DNA of 22,310 bases from a virus: positions 1 to 22,310 of the IMG/VR virus record IMGVR_UViG_3300032229_000179; one strand, written 5' to 3'. The notes beneath the pieces were generated by a model. The model made no database searches. It was given only the letters and a program-made list of their open reading frames with translations, and had not been told where the DNA came from. Each line of letters begins with the position of its first letter. Position 1 is the first letter of the stretch. Shown piece by piece: positions 2,711-17,690 of this stretch. The translations under genes and the position numbers were made by a program.

Positions 2711-2985
2711 GTACAGAAAAGAAAACCCAGTACTGCGGTTCAGCACAAGAGTTAGGCGACAGCTTATTAATCGACCTAAACATCAATCAGTTAAGAGAAA
2801 TCTTATCTAATCCTGATAACGCTCAATTCAAGAAAGAGTTCACTACGAAAGATGGGCAAACTCAGGAAGTAATTAAATTAAAAGCCGTTAAACGCAAAGA
2901 GGCACAAGGTTATTCTACCCACTTCTTATGTTTAAATGATTATGTCAAAGGTGAGAAAGCTCAAGAAAAAGATCTCCCTTTCTAA
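2707..2985 (+). CDS. Small protein with SSB-like C-terminal tail
   Basis: A 92-residue protein next to the exonuclease, joined by ATGA. Its C-terminus is EKAQEKDLPF, closely resembling the acidic D-x-P-F tip through which bacterial single-strand binding proteins recruit partners. The body has alternating hydrophobic and charged residues (FTTKDGQTQEVIKLKAVKRK) that could form a short beta barrel, plus an N-terminal helix LNINQLREIL. The length is well below that of a typical SSB OB-fold protein. An unusual phage ssDNA-binding protein is the best guess; a protein that only mimics the SSB tail to recruit host repair factors is the alternative. The last 50 bases overlap the next gene. Confidence 0.55.
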   Translation: MSTEKKTQYCGSAQELGDSLLIDLNINQLREILSNPDNAQFKKEFTTKDGQTQEVIKLKAVKRKEAQGYSTHFLCLNDYVKGEKAQEKDLPF

Positions 2986-3373
2986 AATCAAGTTTACCGA
3001 CGATTATCGTTGGGACTTAGCTTTTGAAGCAATCAAGGAATTAACAGGAGTTAGCCCGAACGCCATTAGAAGGTCTAGTAGGGTTACTCCACTTCCTGCT
3101 GCTAGGATGATGTTGGCTTACCTAATGTACAAGGATTTAGGAATGACACCAGCTTATATTTCTCATCAAATGAATAAGGATAGAACAAATCTTTATTACG
3201 AGATTTCAGCACTAGAGGAGTATAAGCAGACAGACCCTTACAAAAGCTATTACGAAGCGTTTAGCGAATTATTTTACAAGAAATTAAAAGACTTAGGTTA
3301 TTGTTGTCCTTGCTGTGGAGCATTAGAGCCATTAGTAAAAGGAGACAAGCCATTAAAACCAAATAAACAATGA
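2936..3373 (+). CDS. DnaA domain IV-like DNA-binding protein (diverged)
   Basis: A protein of up to 145 residues. The middle region (about 52-95, AARMMLAYLMYKDLGMTPAY followed by ISHQMNKDRTNLYYEIS) has the shape of DnaA domain IV, the helix-turn-helix that reads DnaA boxes: an Arg-start helix, YLMYKDLGM, then I-x-x-x-x-x-KDRT in place of the usual GRDHST. The C-terminus has a CCPCCGALEP cysteine cluster that may bind zinc. There is no AAA+ ATPase. Start choice is uncertain: ATG at 2936 or 2942, neither with a good ribosome binding site, and both give a 44-50 base overlap with the previous gene. A clearer DnaA domain IV protein is encoded at 4083-4646. Confidence 0.62.
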   Translation: MIMSKVRKLKKKISLSKIKFTDDYRWDLAFEAIKELTGVSPNAIRRSSRVTPLPAARMMLAYLMYKDLGMTPAYISHQMNKDRTNLYYEISALEEYKQTDPYKSYYEAFSELFYKKLKDLGYCCPCCGALEPLVKGDKPLKPNKQ

Positions 3374-4071
3374 GAGTAATAAATTTTAGCGGTGGAAAGA
3401 CATCTGCATTGATGACTATTCTGCTAAAGCCTACGGAAGAAGATATTGTCTTGTTTACTGATACCGGTAGAGAACATCCGTTGACTTACAAGTTTATAGA
3501 TGACTTTGAATCAAATGAAGGTATCAAGGTAACTAAAATTTCTTATGATGGAGGATTCGAAGGCATGCTAGAGAAGAATAAGTTTCTTCCTAACCCAATG
3601 ATCCGTAAATGCACCGTAGAACTTAAAATTAAAACTGCTAAGAGATACTTACGCTCAATAGGAATACAAAGATTCGATAGTTATATTGGATTTAGAGCTG
3701 ATGAAGATAGAAGGGTAAAAACCTACAAGCAAATGCACAAAAAGGTAACCCCACACTTCCCACTTTATGACATGGGTATAACTAAAGACGATGTAAACCA
3801 ATATTGGGAATCTAAGCCTTATAAGTTAGAAATACCTTCAATATTAGGCAACTGCGATTTATGCTTCCTAAAGGGTAAAAATGCGATTATTACTATATTG
3901 CAACATTATCCTGAGTTGGCTGACAAGTGGATTGCAGATGAGAAACGAATCGGTGCTACTTACTTTAAGGACATTAGCTACGAAGAATTGCTAAATTTAG
4001 CACAAAAACAATTATCTTTATTTGAATTAGACAAACAATTACCTGCATACTCTTGCAGTTGCACAAATTAA
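3370..4071 (+). CDS. PAPS reductase-family ATP pyrophosphatase
   Basis: A 233-residue member of the phosphoadenosine-phosphosulfate reductase/adenine nucleotide alpha-hydrolase superfamily. It has the PP-loop FSGGKTSA at residues 6-13, FTDTGREHP near 29-37, IRKCTVELKI at 78-87 and GFRADEDRRV around 107-116. Six cysteines stand out: C81, C162 and C165 (GNCDLCFLKG) and C229/C231 (YSCSCTN), with an arrangement that could hold a metal or iron-sulfur cluster. The family includes true PAPS reductases and enzymes such as DndC that activate a substrate with ATP in DNA sulfur modification. No PAPS synthesis or dnd partner gene is seen. The setting between DNA-binding and Mom-like genes suggests nucleic-acid modification, which is inference. 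Confidence 0.8.
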   Translation: MRVINFSGGKTSALMTILLKPTEEDIVLFTDTGREHPLTYKFIDDFESNEGIKVTKISYDGGFEGMLEKNKFLPNPMIRKCTVELKIKTAKRYLRSIGIQRFDSYIGFRADEDRRVKTYKQMHKKVTPHFPLYDMGITKDDVNQYWESKPYKLEIPSILGNCDLCFLKGKNAIITILQHYPELADKWIADEKRIGATYFKDISYEELLNLAQKQLSLFELDKQLPAYSCSCTN

Positions 4072-4082
4072 AAACCAAAATT

Positions 4083-4646
4083 ATGATACATAACCCAAAA
4101 CCAGTAGATTTAGAACTATTAAAAGACACTTGCTGTCGTATTTTTGAAGTAAATATTGATGATTTATTAAGTCCTTCCAGAAAGCGTCATATCATGGATG
4201 GTAGACGAGCATTTTTCTATATCCTTAGAACCGAGTATGGTTATAGCGAACTAGGAATCTCACGAGCAATTGGAGGCACTAGAGACCACTCTACAATCAT
4301 GCACTCTAACTACTCAACTGCTGACTTATTAGACGCTGATTATACCTTTGCGAGTAAATACAAGCAACTATACGAAAGCTTTACATTACGTCAATATGTT
4401 AAGCCATTACCGCCAAAACCTAAGACGTACAATATGAAATTAAAGCCTATCTACAACTACTATACTGACGATATGTTGGCTAAGTCTAAGCTGAAGATGG
4501 ATTATAGAGTTAAACTACTTTCTGATAATTACAAGAAGGATGTGATTAAATTTATGGACAAATACGGCAATATTACAGCTTGTACGGTTAAGTTTAACAT
4601 ATCTAGACTGCTTGTTCAACGAATCATAAAGGAGATGGCAAAATGA
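4083..4646 (+). CDS. DnaA domain IV-containing protein
   Basis: A 187-residue protein whose N-terminal half is a stand-alone DnaA domain IV: an initial helix LLKDTCCRIFEVNIDDLLSP, SRKRHIMDGRRAFFYILR, then YSELGISRAIGGTRDHSTIM. RDHST is the signature that contacts the DnaA box in host DnaA. The ATPase domain is missing. The C-terminal third (YGNITACTVKFNISRLLVQR) looks like a second helix-turn-helix. It may bind origin DNA with the initiator encoded next, or act as a decoy for host DnaA sites. I prefer the ATG at 4083, which does not overlap the previous gene; an upstream ATG at 4053 would add ten residues. It ends in an ATGA overlap with the initiator gene. Confidence 0.82.
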   Translation: MIHNPKPVDLELLKDTCCRIFEVNIDDLLSPSRKRHIMDGRRAFFYILRTEYGYSELGISRAIGGTRDHSTIMHSNYSTADLLDADYTFASKYKQLYESFTLRQYVKPLPPKPKTYNMKLKPIYNYYTDDMLAKSKLKMDYRVKLLSDNYKKDVIKFMDKYGNITACTVKFNISRLLVQRIIKEMAK

Positions 4647-5278
4647 GCGGATTTTTCTATACGATGCCTGCTGCTGTTTTCTACGATAAAGAGCTTTCTG
4701 CTAATGCCAAATTGATTGCTTGTATCATTGCAAATTTCTGCGATAAATACGGAGTTTGTACGGTTACAAATAAGCATCTAGGTAATGTTTTAGGGAAGTC
4801 AGATCGTAGTCTTTCTAGGCTTATTTCTGAGCTAAATGAAGCAGGTTATATTGACGTAAAAGTAGATATTTTAGACTCAAATAAACGTACGATTACCCTC
4901 ACGACAAAAATGTCTATACCTCACGACAAAAATGACGTGACCTCACGACAAAAATGTCTACATAATAATACTATAGATAATAATATTAAAAATAATATAA
5001 AAGATGTTGAGGAAATTGTTAATTATTTGAACGAAAAGACAGGCTCTAAATACAGAACTGGAAATCAAAATACTTGTAGGTCTATCAACGGAAGATTAAG
5101 CGAAGGATATACCGTAGAAGATTTTAAAACCGTTATAGATTCACAGGTTGCGAGATGGACAGGAACTGAGTACGAACAATACCTAACTCCAAATACTTTA
5201 TTTAGTCCTAGCAAATTCGAAAAATATCTTAACTTTGCTAAACAACCTAAAGAACAAAAACCAAAAATCAAAGCATAA
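4643..5278 (+). CDS. Winged-helix replication initiator
   Basis: A 211-residue protein with an N-terminal winged helix (residues about 14-75: LSANAKLIACIIANFCDKYG, TNKHLGNVLGKSDRSLSRLI, LNEAGYI) and a C-terminal domain like the conserved phage replication C-terminal domain seen in lambda O/DnaD-like initiators (EEIVNYLNEKTGSKYRTGNQ through TPNTLFSPSKFEKYLN, about 122-195). The two are joined by a linker rich in Asn, Ile and Lys. That linker is encoded by three 22-bp-spaced direct repeats and an AT-rich run, so the gene carries the likely origin. It would bind the repeats and load the DnaB helicase encoded at 5913. Overlaps with both neighbours (ATGA, TAATG) indicate coupled translation. Confidence 0.82.
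   Translation: MSGFFYTMPAAVFYDKELSANAKLIACIIANFCDKYGVCTVTNKHLGNVLGKSDRSLSRLISELNEAGYIDVKVDILDSNKRTITLTTKMSIPHDKNDVTSRQKCLHNNTIDNNIKNNIKDVEEIVNYLNEKTGSKYRTGNQNTCRSINGRLSEGYTVEDFKTVIDSQVARWTGTEYEQYLTPNTLFSPSKFEKYLNFAKQPKEQKPKIKA
4897..4956 (+). repeat. Three origin iterons, 16 bp, 22-bp period
   Basis: CCTCACGACAAAAATG occurs without mismatch at 4897-4912, 4919-4934 and 4941-4956. The period is exactly 22 bp, about two helical turns, so all copies face the same side of the helix. The first and third copies continue as TCTATA/TCTACA; the middle one continues as ACGTGA. Copies one and three contain the dyad GACA-AAAA-TGTC. Because 22 is not a multiple of three, the copies are read in three different frames (LTTKM, PHDKN, SRQK), so the repetition is at DNA level. 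They are the expected binding sites for the initiator whose gene contains them. Confidence 0.85.
4957..5006 (+). other. AT-rich candidate DNA unwinding element of the origin
   Basis: Directly after the third iteron the sequence is almost only A and T for about 50 bases (runs such as ATAATAATACTATAGATAAT). This is the layout of a lambda-type origin: initiator repeats flanked by an easily melted segment where the helicase is loaded. It also encodes the Asn/Ile/Lys-rich linker of the initiator. The functional role is inferred from arrangement. Confidence 0.65.
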
Positions 5279-5913
5279 TGAGTATTAAGAATTTATATTC
5301 AGTTAAATCAATAGACAGCTACGAGTGCTATGATTGGCTACTGAACAAGCACTATGCTAAAAGAATACCATCAATAAGTTATTCATTCGGTTTGTTTAAA
5401 GAGAATATTTTAAATGGCGTAATGACCATTGGTAAACCAGCTAGTAATTCACTTTGTGAAGGTATATGCGGATATGAGAATAGTAAATACGTTTATGAGT
5501 TAAACAGATTGGTTATAAACGAAGGATTAGATAAAAATGTATTGAGTTTTTTTGTATCAAATGCAATTAAGCTAATAAAAGAAAATCTGATTATTGTTAG
5601 TTATGCTGATACTGAATGGGGACACAATGGATATATTTATCAAGCAACAAATTGGATTTATACCGGATGCACAAAGGAAAGAACTGATATTGGACTTGAA
5701 GATGGATCGCACTCTAGGCACTATGACAAAAATTTAGATTATGCAAATAATAGGAAGAAAAGAAGTAGCAAACATAGATATGTATTTTTTATTGGTGATA
5801 TGAAAAACCAATTTAAGAGCCAGTTAAGATACAAGATAGAAAGTTATCCAAAGGGCGATAATAAAAGATACGATGCTAGTTACATACCTAAACCACAATT
5901 AAATTTATTCTAA
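5278..5913 (+). CDS. Mom-like DNA modification acyltransferase (copy B)
   Basis: A 211-residue Mom-family protein. It has WLLNKHYAKRIPSISYSFGL at about 20-39, the strand NGVMTIGKPAS, YELNRLVIN around 75-83, and IVSYADTEWGHNGYIYQATN, then W, at about 103-123. These are the conserved positions of the GNAT-fold Mom enzymes that modify adenine in phage DNA after replication. The C-terminus is basic (NRKKRSSKHRYVFF) and may help DNA binding. It sits between the initiator and DnaB helicase genes, linked to each by TAATG, so it should be made with the replication proteins. It is diverged from copy A at 625-1215, so the two may use different substrates or sites. Confidence 0.78.
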   Translation: MSIKNLYSVKSIDSYECYDWLLNKHYAKRIPSISYSFGLFKENILNGVMTIGKPASNSLCEGICGYENSKYVYELNRLVINEGLDKNVLSFFVSNAIKLIKENLIIVSYADTEWGHNGYIYQATNWIYTGCTKERTDIGLEDGSHSRHYDKNLDYANNRKKRSSKHRYVFFIGDMKNQFKSQLRYKIESYPKGDNKRYDASYIPKPQLNLF

Positions 5914-8064: not shown

Positions 8065-8435
8065 CAGTATCACACGACCATATAGACTGGTGGAAAAAGA
8101 ATATGAGTACAAGTTCAGATAAGAGAGTATTTGAGAGCGGTTCACAGCGGGATAGTGATACCAACAAGCCATTAACAACAGCACTTACAGCGTATGCTAG
8201 ATTGCGTTATGGTTATCATCTACGTAAAGGCTCTAATAACTATGGAAAAGATAATTGGAAGCTAGGTCAGCCAAGTGAGGCTTTATTGGAGAGTTTAGAT
8301 CGACACCTTGCTCAGTACCTATCAGGAGACCGGTCGGAAGATCACTTATCAGCTATTATGTTCGGGGTGGTAATGCTAATGCAGAACGAGGAAAAAGAAG
8401 GGATTCCTGTTGATAATTATTTTACGAAAGTTTAA
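8061..8435 (+). CDS. DUF5664-like dATP/dGTP diphosphohydrolase-type protein
   Basis: A 124-residue all-helical protein with the layout of the DUF5664 (dATP/dGTP diphosphohydrolase N-terminal) family: FESGSQRDSDTNKP at the start, ARLRYGYHLRKGSNNYGKDN (then WKLG) in the middle, and ESLDRHLAQYLSGDRSEDHL, then SAIMFGVVML, at the end. Members resemble MazG-type pyrophosphohydrolases that cleave nucleoside triphosphates to monophosphates; the acidic and His residues in the last helices are the likely metal site. It may adjust the nucleotide pool during replication or modification. It is the last plus-strand gene before the converging late operon. Assignment is from motif memory, and the substrate is unknown. 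Confidence 0.62.
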   Translation: MTVSHDHIDWWKKNMSTSSDKRVFESGSQRDSDTNKPLTTALTAYARLRYGYHLRKGSNNYGKDNWKLGQPSEALLESLDRHLAQYLSGDRSEDHLSAIMFGVVMLMQNEEKEGIPVDNYFTKV

Positions 8436-8459
8436 GTTTAGTTAGTATATTTGATTAAT

Positions 8460-8478
8460 AGTTGTGGTTACCGTCTAG
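8460..8478 (+). repeat. Dispersed 19-nt element, copy 1
   Basis: AGTTGTGGTTACCGTCTAG here recurs at 16816-16834 with T to C at one position. Similarity extends on both sides with small gaps (TTAATA before, GTTTA after). Both copies are non-coding and in the same orientation on the plus strand, although the genes around the second copy run on the minus strand. Confidence 0.75.
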
Positions 8479-8511
8479 AGGTTTATTTGGTTACCCTTTA
8501 GACAAAAGATT

Positions 8512-8538
8512 GGGGGCATTACGCCCCCTTTCCTTTTT
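8512..8538 (+). terminator. Intrinsic terminator between converging operons
   Basis: GGGGGC (8512-8517), a five-base loop ATTAC and GCCCCC (8523-8528) form a perfect GC stem, followed by TTTCCTTTTT. It ends the plus-strand early operon. On the minus strand the same stem is followed by a T-containing tract (AATCTTTT), so it may also stop the late operon after the RusA gene, whose stop codon overlaps the T-run. Confidence 0.88.
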
Positions 8539-14422: not shown

Positions 14423-16122
14423 TAATAATATCCGTTTCTGTTTTTATCAGCTCTATTAACTAAAATCGCTAAGTCGTTCCCACTTATTCTTGTCTGCAAC
14501 GTCATAGGGTTGTTACTATTCATGCTCATTGTTCCATTCTGAAAAGCAGTTGGTAGAGCTAAAAAGTTAGGCCCTGATTGCCCTGTAGGTGGCATAGCCA
14601 TATTGTTACCACCGCTTGGGTTTCTAGCAAACCCGCCTAAGGCTCCTGCTGCAATTTTCAATGCGATACCGGCAGCTAATGCAACACCCCAGTTTGCAGG
14701 ATTAAATAAGTTTGCTAATGCCGTAGAGAATGTCAAGCCAGCAAGAGATGCAGCAATCAACATATCGCCAAATTGTGATAACACAGATGCCAGAGAGCCT
14801 AATATAGCTTTCCCAAATGCCTTCCCAACATTACCTCCAGTAGCAAAAGCATCACCTATTGCCATCATTGCATTTCCTATAGTAAGGGCTATACCATTTG
14901 TAAATATATCATCTATTTGCTGTTCTATTCTTATCATTTCAAGAACAAAGTTTTTTAATTGCTCTTTTTGATAATCAAATAATTTACTAGGGAATAACTC
15001 TACTGGTTTTACTTGATCCTTTAATCTAGGTGTTACAAGTCCAGGCAAAGACTCATAAGACATTTTACCATATAGTTTTTCTGATATTTTGTCTCTTGAT
15101 TGCCTTAGCTTATCTAAAGATTCTGTAGTTGCATCTACTTGTTTCCCTCCCTTAAATAATCCATCGAAGAAATCTCTAAAACTAAATGATGCTGCATCTG
15201 CTGTATCTGAAGCGAATTTTAAGCCATCCCCGAATTGAACTAATTGCTCACCTGCTGCTTTTATTATAGCTCCTTTTAATGGATCAAATGTAGATACGAA
15301 TGTTCCTAATAATGTAGATGATGTCTTTACAAATATTTGAATTAATCCAATAATATTGTTTATGACGTTCTTGGCTATGTTACCCAAAGCCTCAAAAGCT
15401 CCGCCAAAATCTCCTTTTATCACAGCAGCGGCAAATCTAAATATATTCAGGACATTATTCATAGTATTGTAAATAATACCGTAGAATACTCTAAATATAG
15501 TAGATATATCAGAACCGAAATTATTCCAAACGGAAATGGAGAAATCCACAGCTGCTTCCATTATTTGCTTTATAAGTCCAACAGCCTCCTCTAATCCAGC
15601 TACCGCAGCACTTAACATATTTGATGCAGGAGGAGTACTTAGGTAATTAACTAATCGCCCTATAGCACTCTCACTATCCTCACCCATCTTTTTTATAGCA
15701 CCAGATACCGTTCCTCCATTTCTCTCTACGCCTTGTGCCCAATAAGCAAATACAGTAAGACCTGCAGCTAATGCAGAACCAATGACAGATAAAGCAGCAC
15801 CAAATCCTGCAGATACTCCAGATAGTAAAACTAATTGGTCTATAAGGATAGGAATGTTGTTAGATATAGCGAGAACCCCAAGCCCGAAGCTCTGAGAGAA
15901 GAAACCCGCATCTCGAATAACCTGACCAAATGCAAATGTAGCTAATCTAGCCCTATTCATATCACCACCAACTCTATTTATACTTTGGCTCATGGCATTA
16001 AATGAACCCGATGTATTCTCTGAAGTTGCTTTTAGTGAATTTAAGGTTGATTGTGCAGATTTTATACTGGCTTGTAGATTGCTTATATCGGCAGTTATCT
16101 TGACCTGAAAATTACTATCCAT
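14422..16122 (-). CDS. Tail tape measure protein
   Basis: A 566-residue protein following the tail chaperone genes. The first 60 residues are a coiled coil (ITADISNLQASIKSAQSTLN). Hydrophobic segments follow at about 85-125 and again in the last 120 residues (AGIALKIAAGALGGFARNP). Such proteins set tail length; by the usual rule of about 1.5 angstrom per residue the tail would be near 85 nm. It overlaps the T reading frame by eight bases and meets the tail-tip gene in a one-base overlap. Confidence 0.87.
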   Translation of the reverse strand: MDSNFQVKITADISNLQASIKSAQSTLNSLKATSENTSGSFNAMSQSINRVGGDMNRARLATFAFGQVIRDAGFFSQSFGLGVLAISNNIPILIDQLVLLSGVSAGFGAALSVIGSALAAGLTVFAYWAQGVERNGGTVSGAIKKMGEDSESAIGRLVNYLSTPPASNMLSAAVAGLEEAVGLIKQIMEAAVDFSISVWNNFGSDISTIFRVFYGIIYNTMNNVLNIFRFAAAVIKGDFGGAFEALGNIAKNVINNIIGLIQIFVKTSSTLLGTFVSTFDPLKGAIIKAAGEQLVQFGDGLKFASDTADAASFSFRDFFDGLFKGGKQVDATTESLDKLRQSRDKISEKLYGKMSYESLPGLVTPRLKDQVKPVELFPSKLFDYQKEQLKNFVLEMIRIEQQIDDIFTNGIALTIGNAMMAIGDAFATGGNVGKAFGKAILGSLASVLSQFGDMLIAASLAGLTFSTALANLFNPANWGVALAAGIALKIAAGALGGFARNPSGGNNMAMPPTGQSGPNFLALPTAFQNGTMSMNSNNPMTLQTRISGNDLAILVNRADKNRNGYY

Positions 16123-16794
16123 TATTATCTAGTTTTTCTACGACCTTTTGGAAGGCCTCTTTTGTTAGTGGTTCTTGCTTAGGCTTTTTAGGTTTGCCTA
16201 TCTTATCTGTCCAAAGCGGGAGTATTTGCTCAGGTTTCTTTTGGTCTTGACGTTTACCAACATTAGCGTTGTAAATCATAGACACAATAGTCCTAGTATG
16301 CTCCCAGTCTTGGGTTTTTCTTTTAATCTGACCATAAGCATACCTATTATAGTTTGCCCACGTCATATCGAAGAATTGGTCGGGAAGAAGCCCTACTTCA
16401 CATATCGCAAAGTCTACGACCTCTTCCCAGCCTATTTTTTTGGCGTATTACCGCCTTTAGAATTAGATCCCATCGCCTCCTGAATCTCGATTACTCCTTG
16501 AGTAGCTTTTACTGACTCCTCGAATACTTGAGTGATTTCTGTAATTTGGTGAATAGGCATATCGTCTACCCAGCTAACTACATCCTCGTAAGTGAAGTCC
16601 TCAGTTTCTTTCTTAATGAAGCAGTTGTTCTTTAATCCGCAATAAACCAAATCAGCACATAGCTTAATAGGGTTTTGCTCGTTGAACTCTACTACTCCGG
16701 TATTGTTGAGCTTTGAATACTCGATTAATGCGTAGTTACCGAATTTAACACCACGCTTTTTACCACCTAATTCTAATTGAATATAACCTGTCAT
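16115..16794 (-). CDS. Tail assembly chaperone GT, -1 frameshift product
   Basis: Slipping back one base on the A-run at 16441-16435 just before the G stop continues the protein to 16115, giving a fusion of about 226 residues. The extension begins IGWEEVVDFAICEVGLLPDQ and runs into FFDMTWANYNRYAYGQIKRK, a tail-chaperone T pattern. It has no useful start of its own: the only ATG (16366) lies well inside this conserved stretch. The long form is needed with G to load the tape measure, as in lambda. Confidence 0.85.
16432..16794 (-). CDS. Tail assembly chaperone G
   Basis: A 120-residue protein (MTGYIQLELGGKKRGVKFGN at the start, FTYEDVVSWVDDMPIHQITE in the middle) in the position and size of the siphophage G chaperone, ending in CCA-AAA-AAA-TAG. 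Most ribosomes stop here; some shift into the T frame. The gene has a clear AGGAG site at 16805-16801, five to six bases before ATG, inside a possible hairpin with 16833-16838. Upstream is the tail-tube gene and downstream the tape measure, the usual order. Confidence 0.85.
   Translation of the reverse strand: MTGYIQLELGGKKRGVKFGNYALIEYSKLNNTGVVEFNEQNPIKLCADLVYCGLKNNCFIKKETEDFTYEDVVSWVDDMPIHQITEITQVFEESVKATQGVIEIQEAMGSNSKGGNTPKK
16435..16441 (-). other. -1 ribosomal frameshift site A-AAA-AAA
   Basis: The minus strand reads CCA AAA AAA TAG. The heptamer A-AAA-AAA fits the X-XXY-YYZ rule and lies immediately before the G stop. The T frame (16366 relative to 16794) is exactly the -1 frame. This is the lambda G/GT arrangement. 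Confidence 0.85.
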
Positions 16795-16799
16795 AATTT

Positions 16800-16838
16800 T
16801 CTCCTTTTTAATAGTAGTTGTGGCTACCGTCTAGGAGA
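16800..16838 (-). promoter_or_regulatory. Leader hairpin masking the chaperone ribosome binding site
   Basis: On the minus strand TCTCCT (16838-16833) can pair with AGGAGA (16805-16800), the ribosome binding site of gene G, across a 27-base loop. Most of the loop is the dispersed 19-nt element (16834-16816). A short stem with a long loop is weak by itself, so any effect on translation may depend on a partner binding the loop. Confidence 0.4.
16816..16834 (+). repeat. Dispersed 19-nt element, copy 2
   Basis: AGTTGTGGCTACCGTCTAG, matching 8460-8478 at 18 of 19 positions. It lies in the 50-base gap between the second tail-tube gene and gene G, so the mRNA of gene G contains its reverse complement, which could pair with the plus-strand RNA made at 8460-8478 (the single difference becomes a U-G pair). 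Confidence 0.75.
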
Positions 16839-16844
16839 GTTTAA

Positions 16845-17252
16845 TTAGGATACAGTAGATTGGGTTAATGCTCCAGTACCTTGGAAAGATACGCTGAAAC
16901 CTGAAGGGCTTTCCATATCAGCAGTCTGAGAGATAGAAGATACATAAGCTGAACCGCTTAACAACATATCACCAGCAGTTGAAGTAGAGAAAGTAACCGA
17001 TACAGTATTACGTGCAATTAACATTGCTACTAATTCGTCAGTTTCTACACTTGCAGAAGTTGCGTAGTCGATAAGACCATCTGAAGATAAAGTCCAAGAA
17101 CGTACACCTGCGAAGAACTCCGCCCATCCAGCTGAATCTTTTGTAGTTGCATCAGGCATATCTACGCTCATTTCTAAACTTGCAGTAGTTGCTTTCAATA
17201 AAGGCACACCACCGACTTTGATTACTAAATTTGTTCCGTTAATTAAGGCCAT
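16845..17252 (-). CDS. Major tail (tube) protein, copy 2
   Basis: A 135-residue protein beginning MALINGTNLVIKVGGVPLLK, with DATTKDSAGWAEFFAGVRSW and LSGSAYVSSI. It is clearly paralogous to the gene just upstream (MALVNGTDLV, IDATSRSSSGWSEFIMGSRS, YNGYVYVSSL). Both match the TP901-1-like tail tube pattern in which hexameric rings stack to form the tube. It is followed by the leader of gene G. Two copies suggest either a mixed tube or one protein for tube and one for a decoration or terminal ring. Confidence 0.85.
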   Translation of the reverse strand: MALINGTNLVIKVGGVPLLKATTASLEMSVDMPDATTKDSAGWAEFFAGVRSWTLSSDGLIDYATSASVETDELVAMLIARNTVSVTFSTSTAGDMLLSGSAYVSSISQTADMESPSGFSVSFQGTGALTQSTVS

Positions 17253-17279: not shown

Positions 17280-17690
17280 TTATGCTACTGTTTCAGCAAA
17301 GATTTCTGTTCCTTGCAATGTTCCTGAGTAAGTTACTACATCTTCCATAGGGCCATCGATAGTCAAGCTAGATACATAAACGTATCCGTTATAAACTAAA
17401 GTACCTGCTAAGTTTGTAGTAAACTTAACTAAGAATTTTGTTTTGTTCTCTACGGCTGTTTCTAACCATGCTGGATCAATATCATCCGAATAGTCTACTA
17501 AGCCTTCAAAGTCCAAAGTAAATGATCTGCTACCCATAATAAATTCGCTCCAACCTGAAGAGCTTCTAGAGGTAGCATCAATAGGGTTTGCCTCAACATT
17601 TAATGTGAAGCTACGAGAGTGTCCGAACGCTTTGTTGGTTACTCCGTCTAGTACATAAAGTACAAGGTCTGTTCCGTTTACTAATGCCAT
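17280..17690 (-). CDS. Major tail (tube) protein, copy 1
   Basis: A 136-residue tube protein (MALVNGTDLVLYVLDGVTNK, IDATSRSSSGWSEFIMGSRS, FTLDFEGLVDY, AGTLVYNGYVYVSSLTI). It is one base from the tail terminator gene and 27 bases from its paralogue downstream. Similar length, start and motif order show an ancient tandem duplication, but the residues between the shared motifs differ considerably. Which copy forms the bulk of the tube cannot be told from sequence. Confidence 0.85.
   Translation of the reverse strand: MALVNGTDLVLYVLDGVTNKAFGHSRSFTLNVEANPIDATSRSSSGWSEFIMGSRSFTLDFEGLVDYSDDIDPAWLETAVENKTKFLVKFTTNLAGTLVYNGYVYVSSLTIDGPMEDVVTYSGTLQGTEIFAETVA

Follow-up and report, generated by a model that had tools for sequence, protein, structure and literature searches.

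A putative trans-acting small RNA of uncultured phages with conserved pairing to a tail-chaperone leader and predicted unmasking of the ribosome binding site

Comparison of related phage sequences demonstrated conserved pairing between an RNA segment encoded between two converging operons and the leader of a tail assembly chaperone gene, together with a conserved hairpin in that leader and a conserved hairpin and terminator in the putative small RNA (sRNA) which would carry the segment. The stretch of viral DNA analyzed, referred to here as the window, comprises 22,310 nt (IMG/VR record IMGVR_UViG_3300032229_000179, positions 1 to 22,310). The reading we consider likely, with a probability of about 0.74, is that a dedicated trans-acting sRNA activates the chaperone by unmasking its ribosome binding site (RBS); transcription of the sRNA, its own promoter, the order of events, the sign of the effect and its timing are inferred.

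Pairing of the two loci and its covariation in relatives

RNA from positions 8460-8478 of the + strand (AGTTGTGGTTACCGTCTAG) can form 19 continuous base pairs, one of them U-G, with positions 16834-16816 of the leftward chaperone mRNA (- strand; 16816-16834 reads AGTTGTGGCTACCGTCTAG on the + strand). The sRNA (8460-8538, +) and its target are separate loci approximately 8 kb apart on opposite strands. The contiguous 19-nt duplex covers two bases of TCTCCT, the mask which faces the RBS in the leader, and stops about 10 nt upstream of the RBS. As predicted by RNAduplex, pairing extends with small bulges across the whole mask, giving about 28 pairs and reaching approximately the stop codon of the upstream gene. 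For the fixed pattern 0.01 matches would be expected by chance with up to 3 mismatches, and when all pairs of 19-mers differing by no more than 1 mismatch were counted, six Markov shuffles of the window contained between 0 and 2 clusters. Because shuffled windows gave clusters of like quality, the test had to be comparative. The match in a single window is by itself suggestive and only modestly surprising; it is conservation in relatives that raises the pairing above chance.

Relatives were collected from IMG/VR by searches with the chaperone protein (42 loci in the wider scan) and the RusA-like protein (25 loci), and by a pattern scan for the sRNA, which recovered 25 stretches. The sRNA stretches compared represent one syntenic locus; two of these (L096 and L105) were read directly and matched, and the others were already known through RusA. 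A pattern for the apical part of the leader hairpin, AGTAACCACAATTACTTA, recovered 13 stretches, all of them chaperone leaders, including one (L109) newly found. Chaperones of phages sharing the system were as little as approximately 64% identical. Outside IMG/VR, a nucleotide search of isolated phages (INPHARED) gave no match to either the sRNA locus or the leader locus, and no chaperone relative was found there by protein. Searches of GTDB genomes by protein alignment and by sRNA pattern were likewise empty and thus gave neither a prophage nor a named host. The conserved sRNA was also captured as a covariance model, which gave only weak, chance-level matches to Flavobacterium phages 11b and FpV9 and five other loci; where it matched the sRNA loci on their other strand (E 0.02-0.3), the cause is the palindromic terminator.

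The leaders fell into distinct sequence types and the sRNAs into matching types. In the window, leader CTAGACGGTAGCCACAACT is matched by the sRNA segment given above; the corresponding pairs are leader TTCGGGCGATAACCACA with sRNA TGTGGTTATCGCCCGAA in contig 11339, leader CCGAGCGATAACCACA with sRNA TGTGGTTATCGCTCGG in contig 17917, and leader CTGACAGTAACCAC with sRNA GTGGTTACTGTCAG in contig 42154. Ten divergent sRNA/leader pairs were aligned jointly, nine of them each lying on one contig and the tenth (42899) joining two contigs of one metagenome. In this alignment 94.2% of cells paired and 7 of the 19 base pairs had changed on both sides. The covariation score exceeded that of all 500 shuffles, and sliding the partners against each other cut pairing to 34-48%. 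As shuffles ignore relatedness, a phylogeny-aware simulation was also run, in which both elements evolved independently on a tree of flanking genes (5000 runs; the 42899 tip was grafted beside 42154 with assumed branch lengths). Changes were restricted to truly variable columns, at rates matched to the 13 and 14 changes observed. Within the 15-nt core, 147 of 150 cells were paired, compared with a simulated mean of 123.9 (sd 6.1, maximum 143), and none of the 5000 runs reached the observed value. A single mismatch interrupts the core in contig 27963. GUGGUUA in the sRNA and UARCCACA in the leader were invariant. It is therefore nearly certain, as inferred from sequence comparison, that the conserved RNA-RNA pairing is real.

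With respect to target choice, the chaperone leader was the top predicted target in all eight contigs scored separately (z -5.6 to -9.2); two further contigs were left out of this scoring, since the tag used could not tell the leader from its antisense strand. Cognate pairing energy was better than that obtained with shuffled partners (45/100000 shuffles).

One alternative is that the two copies represent conserved repeated DNA, such as a protein-binding or recombination site, with RNA complementarity a by-product of their orientation. Among close relatives both sites do resemble a simple repeat. Against this, nearly all non-Watson-Crick differences between the core copies are target G with sRNA U, which retains the RNA pair and would not be favored by a DNA site. 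Each site also lies within its own covarying RNA structure, and the repeat has the predicted RNA start at one end and the RBS mask at the other. We regard this explanation as very unlikely, and a simple DNA repeat was rejected on the compensatory direction of the changes and the RNA context.

The leader hairpin and the chaperone gene

The target leader forms a two-storey hairpin (16800-16838, -) directly after the stop codon of the upstream tail tube gene (16847-16845). In the lower stem the mask TCTCCT (16838-16833) faces the RBS AGGAGA (16805-16800), upstream of the ATG at 16794; in the upper stem GGTAG (16828-16824) pairs with CTACT (16817-16813), leaving the apical loop CCACAA (16823-16818), which is predicted to be unpaired in the free leader with a probability of 1.0. 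Across relatives the RBS remains in the lower stem and CCACA(A/U) in the apical loop, and both stems covary. Lower stems in other leaders include TCTTCG/CGAAGA, TCTCTG/CAGAGA and TTATCC/GGATAA, and upper stems occur as GGTAG/CTACT, AGTAA/TTACT and GATAA/TTATT. Among 10 distinct leaders 7 of 11 stem pairs carried double changes and all 110 leader-stem cells paired. Whole-leader MAFFT alignment misaligned the 3' side, and the stems were aligned in fixed blocks whose register is a choice; as the mask/RBS register was picked by eye for each leader, the figure of 100% pairing is generous, and the double changes stand. Sequestration of the RBS in the target leader is thus supported by a covarying mask/RBS stem.

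An earlier note on the window, made without comparison to relatives, had claimed 19 continuous pairs with one U-G between 8460-8478 (+) and 16834-16816 (-), an RBS that can be masked by an upstream TCTCCT of which the pairing covers two bases, and pairing over the hairpin loop. Each of these claims held, the mask/RBS hairpin being found to covary and the CCACAA loop lying inside 16834-16816. The note had also proposed that related phages be searched for co-variation between the two elements, the lack of which would refute the idea; co-variation was present and strong, and the refuting absence was not observed.

The gene downstream of this leader (16432-16794, -; 120 aa) is assigned as a gpG-like tail assembly chaperone on gene order and frameshift architecture. 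It is preceded by a tail tube gene (Pfam Phage_tail_2) and followed by a probable tape-measure gene, the latter identified through weak PHROGs matches. The chaperone protein itself had no Pfam match and only a weak PHROG match to a baseplate hub (E 7.8e-4). The gene ends in CC AAA AAA A TAG, providing a putative -1 frameshift site (CCAAAAAAATAG, 16443-16432) at a slippery A7, followed by an in-frame gpT-like extension reaching 16115 (site and extension together 16115-16443, -). A slippery A7 of the form CCAAAAAAATA(G/A) was present in 12 of 12 relatives, in each case together with a -1 frame that stays open for at least 100 aa. By position and by this conserved site the target gene is of the gpG/gpGT tail-chaperone type; frameshifting is inferred from sequence. 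Upstream, two tandem tail tube paralogues are encoded (16845-17252 and 17280-17690, -), which are also present in relatives; both best match phrog_1407 and they are approximately 35% identical in cross-comparison.

The leader hairpin could alternatively be a cis-element (chaperone autoregulation, translational coupling or an RNA thermometer), the sRNA-like transcript being merely the 3' end of the early operon without a function in trans. Consistent with this, the hairpin covaries independently and sits directly after the upstream stop codon, and the sRNA is encoded behind the early operon with the same orientation. This explanation leaves unaccounted for both the invariant GUGGUUA/UARCCACA and an sRNA 5' segment which tracks every clade-specific change in the leader, and we consider it very unlikely.

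The putative sRNA, its promoter and its genomic setting

The putative sRNA of approximately 79 nt (8460-8538, +), conserved in the 25 IMG/VR stretches, ends at a terminator; its 5' end is inferred and may lie a few nucleotides earlier. In the free RNA, positions 8460-8472, which hold the seed GUGGUUA, are predicted to be unpaired (probability approximately 0.9-1.0), and 8473-8478 form part of the 5' arm of a hairpin (8473-8503, +) composed of GTCTAGAGG and CCTTTAGAC around the loop TTTATTTGGTTAC. Among 14 sequences 5 of 8 pairs of this hairpin had changed on both sides, and the UUGGUU within its loop was invariant. The intrinsic terminator (8512-8538, +), identified by terminator scan, consists of a GC-rich hairpin, GGGGGCATTACGCCCCC, and a U-rich tail; it is near-invariant, with its stem 100% paired in 14 of 14 sequences. 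The hairpin loop region at 8487-8495 (+), UUGGUUACC, is a near repeat of the seed GUGGUUACC at 8465-8472 (+). Homology to the IsrK, SeqA or c4 RNA families was not found, as a search of the window against Rfam 15 gave no match up to E = 1.

Converging genes flank the sRNA interval: an ORF on the + strand ends at 8435 and a RusA-like ORF (-) at 8537. The locus is downstream of the early operon and in the same direction. Upstream of the seed is a predicted -7 promoter box, TATATTTG (8446-8453, +), which matches exactly the Bacteroidota consensus TAnnTTTG (PMC7366714). Each sRNA locus found carried this box or one of its variants, TATTTTTG and TATATTTA, directly 5' of the seed; TATATTT or TATTTTT adjoins the seed at each locus and the flanks vary. 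The match is weak evidence when taken alone because TAnnTTTG occurs 40 times on both strands of this AT-rich window, compared with an expectation of 26 in shuffled sequence (none of 100 shuffles reached 40). Some of these 40 sites may be phage promoters. Inspection by eye revealed no -33 TTTG at the standard distance from the sRNA -7 box; in Flavobacterium johnsoniae the -7 consensus has been confirmed and the -33 motif was not identified (PMC7366714). A sigma-70 promoter scan was uninformative in the window (35 found, 38.7 expected). In contigs 42154 and 42899 approximately 200 nt of apparently non-coding DNA separates the sRNA from the preceding dGTPase-N-like gene. An own promoter is suggested by the conservation of the -7 box and by this distance from the preceding gene in one clade, and the sRNA is likely to be an independent gene; its transcription and promoter are inferred, without transcript data. 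At L054 (10387-10660, -) and L063 (3111-3400) the approximately 200-nt spacer was observed to hold a remnant resembling the C-terminal end of the dGTPase-N-like protein of other clades (VDNYYKK), as though the end of that gene had stayed behind or undergone duplication.

The host of these uncultured phages is likely to be a member of the Bacteroidota. This is inferred from two other phage proteins, whose best matches are in Flavobacterium and Cellulophaga phages at 32-43% identity. Elsewhere in the window two Mom-family proteins are encoded (625-1215 and 5278-5913, +; Pfam PF25680, E 3e-16 and 2e-34). From these Pfam matches Mom-like DNA modification is a possibility. A PAPS-reductase-domain protein (3370-4071) is flanked by two proteins bearing a helix-turn-helix like that of DnaA domain IV (Bac_DnaA_C; 2936-3373 and 4053-4646, +), the Bac_DnaA_C match of the first falling below the Pfam cut-off.

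Predicted activation and relation to known regulators

In the mechanism we propose, the RNA of 8460-8538 would be a dedicated phage-encoded trans-acting sRNA, probably transcribed from its own promoter at TATATTTG, with the tail-chaperone leader as its target. In the free mRNA the lower hairpin stem would hold the chaperone RBS and the apical loop would display CCACAA. Both this loop and the sRNA 5' tail are predicted to be open in the free RNAs, which suggests where pairing starts: the unpaired seed GUGGUUA would nucleate on the loop, and pairing would then proceed along the upper stem and the mask strand, with concurrent opening of the sRNA hairpin. The freed RBS would allow activated translation of the gpG/gpGT chaperone, a loop-seeded strand exchange. 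The predicted full duplex indeed spans the upper stem and mask strand and competes with the sRNA hairpin. The predicted mean unpaired probability of the RBS was 0.33-0.47 without the sRNA and 0.63-0.96 once the cognate sRNA was included, with a rise in 10 of 10 pairs; for sRNAs whose 5' part had been shuffled, accessibility averaged 0.47 and did not exceed 0.74. Activation is the best-supported sign because accessibility rises in all ten cognate pairs while shuffled controls average 0.47. This conclusion rests on thermodynamic prediction, there being no transcript data for these uncultured phages. A ribosome terminating on the upstream tail tube gene might also open the hairpin, and the sRNA is perhaps not its sole opener.

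The main rival retains the same pairing with the opposite sign. Here a long duplex that begins a few bases past the stop codon upstream would block re-initiation after the tail tube gene or lead to RNase III cleavage, and chaperone levels would be lowered. In its favor, the duplex reaches roughly as far as the stop codon of the preceding gene, the leader hairpin could plausibly mediate translational coupling, and most described phage antisense RNAs repress (reviewed in PMC12197685). Against it, the partner of the sRNA is the mask strand and not the RBS, the contiguous duplex ending about 10 nt short of it; predicted RBS accessibility increases in every pair; and simple repression would not need a dedicated covarying mask. 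Repression is therefore judged unlikely, and activation by RBS unmasking remains the preferred reading.

The earlier note had further proposed a structured RNA with a strong terminator in the gap between the converging operons, and had described it as an early-operon 3' end that tunes a late tail gene. The sequence features held (hairpin and U-tract, 8512-8538), with transcription inferred. The RNA is probably not merely an operon 3' end, as the conserved -7 box suggests its own promoter. The tail chaperone is supported as the target, and the direction of the effect, itself inferred, is refined to predicted activation.

The nearest mechanistic relative found was the IsrK sRNA of prophage Gifsy-1, which has been shown experimentally to free an RBS in trans (PMC4825925). 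As with IsrK, the RNA described here is phage-encoded, acts in trans on a phage mRNA and pairs with the RBS-sequestering strand to activate, which is demonstrated for IsrK and predicted here. IsrK differs in being the 5' part of the operon transcript that it regulates and in controlling an antirepressor, whereas the present RNA has a virion-assembly gene as its target and is encoded approximately 8 kb from it, between converging operons; the two have no sequence relation (no Rfam match). The sRNAs DsrA, RprA and ArcZ activate E. coli rpoS by base pairing to the strand of its leader hairpin that is inhibitory, and the RBS is thereby freed. The anti-antisense logic is the same. Those RNAs are host regulators which need Hfq, in contrast to a viral sRNA that pairs over 19-28 nt from its 5' end. 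Bacteroides has no obvious Hfq or ProQ homologue (PMC7366714). Phage Mu Com, a zinc-finger protein, activates mom translation (PMC6483171); there too a phage trans-factor binds the loop of a phage-mRNA hairpin and exposes translation-start signals, the trans-factor here being an RNA rather than a protein.

Phage sRNAs reviewed recently (PMC12197685, 2025) include VpdS of VP882, PreS and OOP of lambda, c4 of P1/P7 and STnc6030 of BTP1. These are likewise phage-encoded base-pairing RNAs, some acting in trans, but they hit host mRNAs or lysis-lysogeny and immunity genes, or are cis-antisense repressors (STnc6030, of a tailspike gene). None of the examples noted from that review is described as activating a virion-assembly gene. 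Nothing relevant on sRNAs of tail chaperones or of Flavobacterium phages was found in the open-licence literature searched, so absence is not proven.

A bolder reading, toward which the balance tips only slightly, is that this phage family, probably of Bacteroidota, uses an own-promoter sRNA at the early/late junction as a single-target chaperone activator. As a natural riboregulator it would operate by loop-seeded strand exchange, with no known RNA chaperone, and would place an RNA gate on top of programmed frameshifting. Most described phage sRNAs serve lysis-lysogeny, immunity or host-directed functions, and here sequence evolution points to an sRNA for one virion-assembly gene. This suggests that RNA, besides frameshifting, sets tail-chaperone dosage. 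Since seed/target pairs have diverged between clades, the system would amount to a compact riboregulator from nature in which swap tests are already built in. It also poses the question of how pairing through a long seed is achieved in hosts which may lack Hfq.
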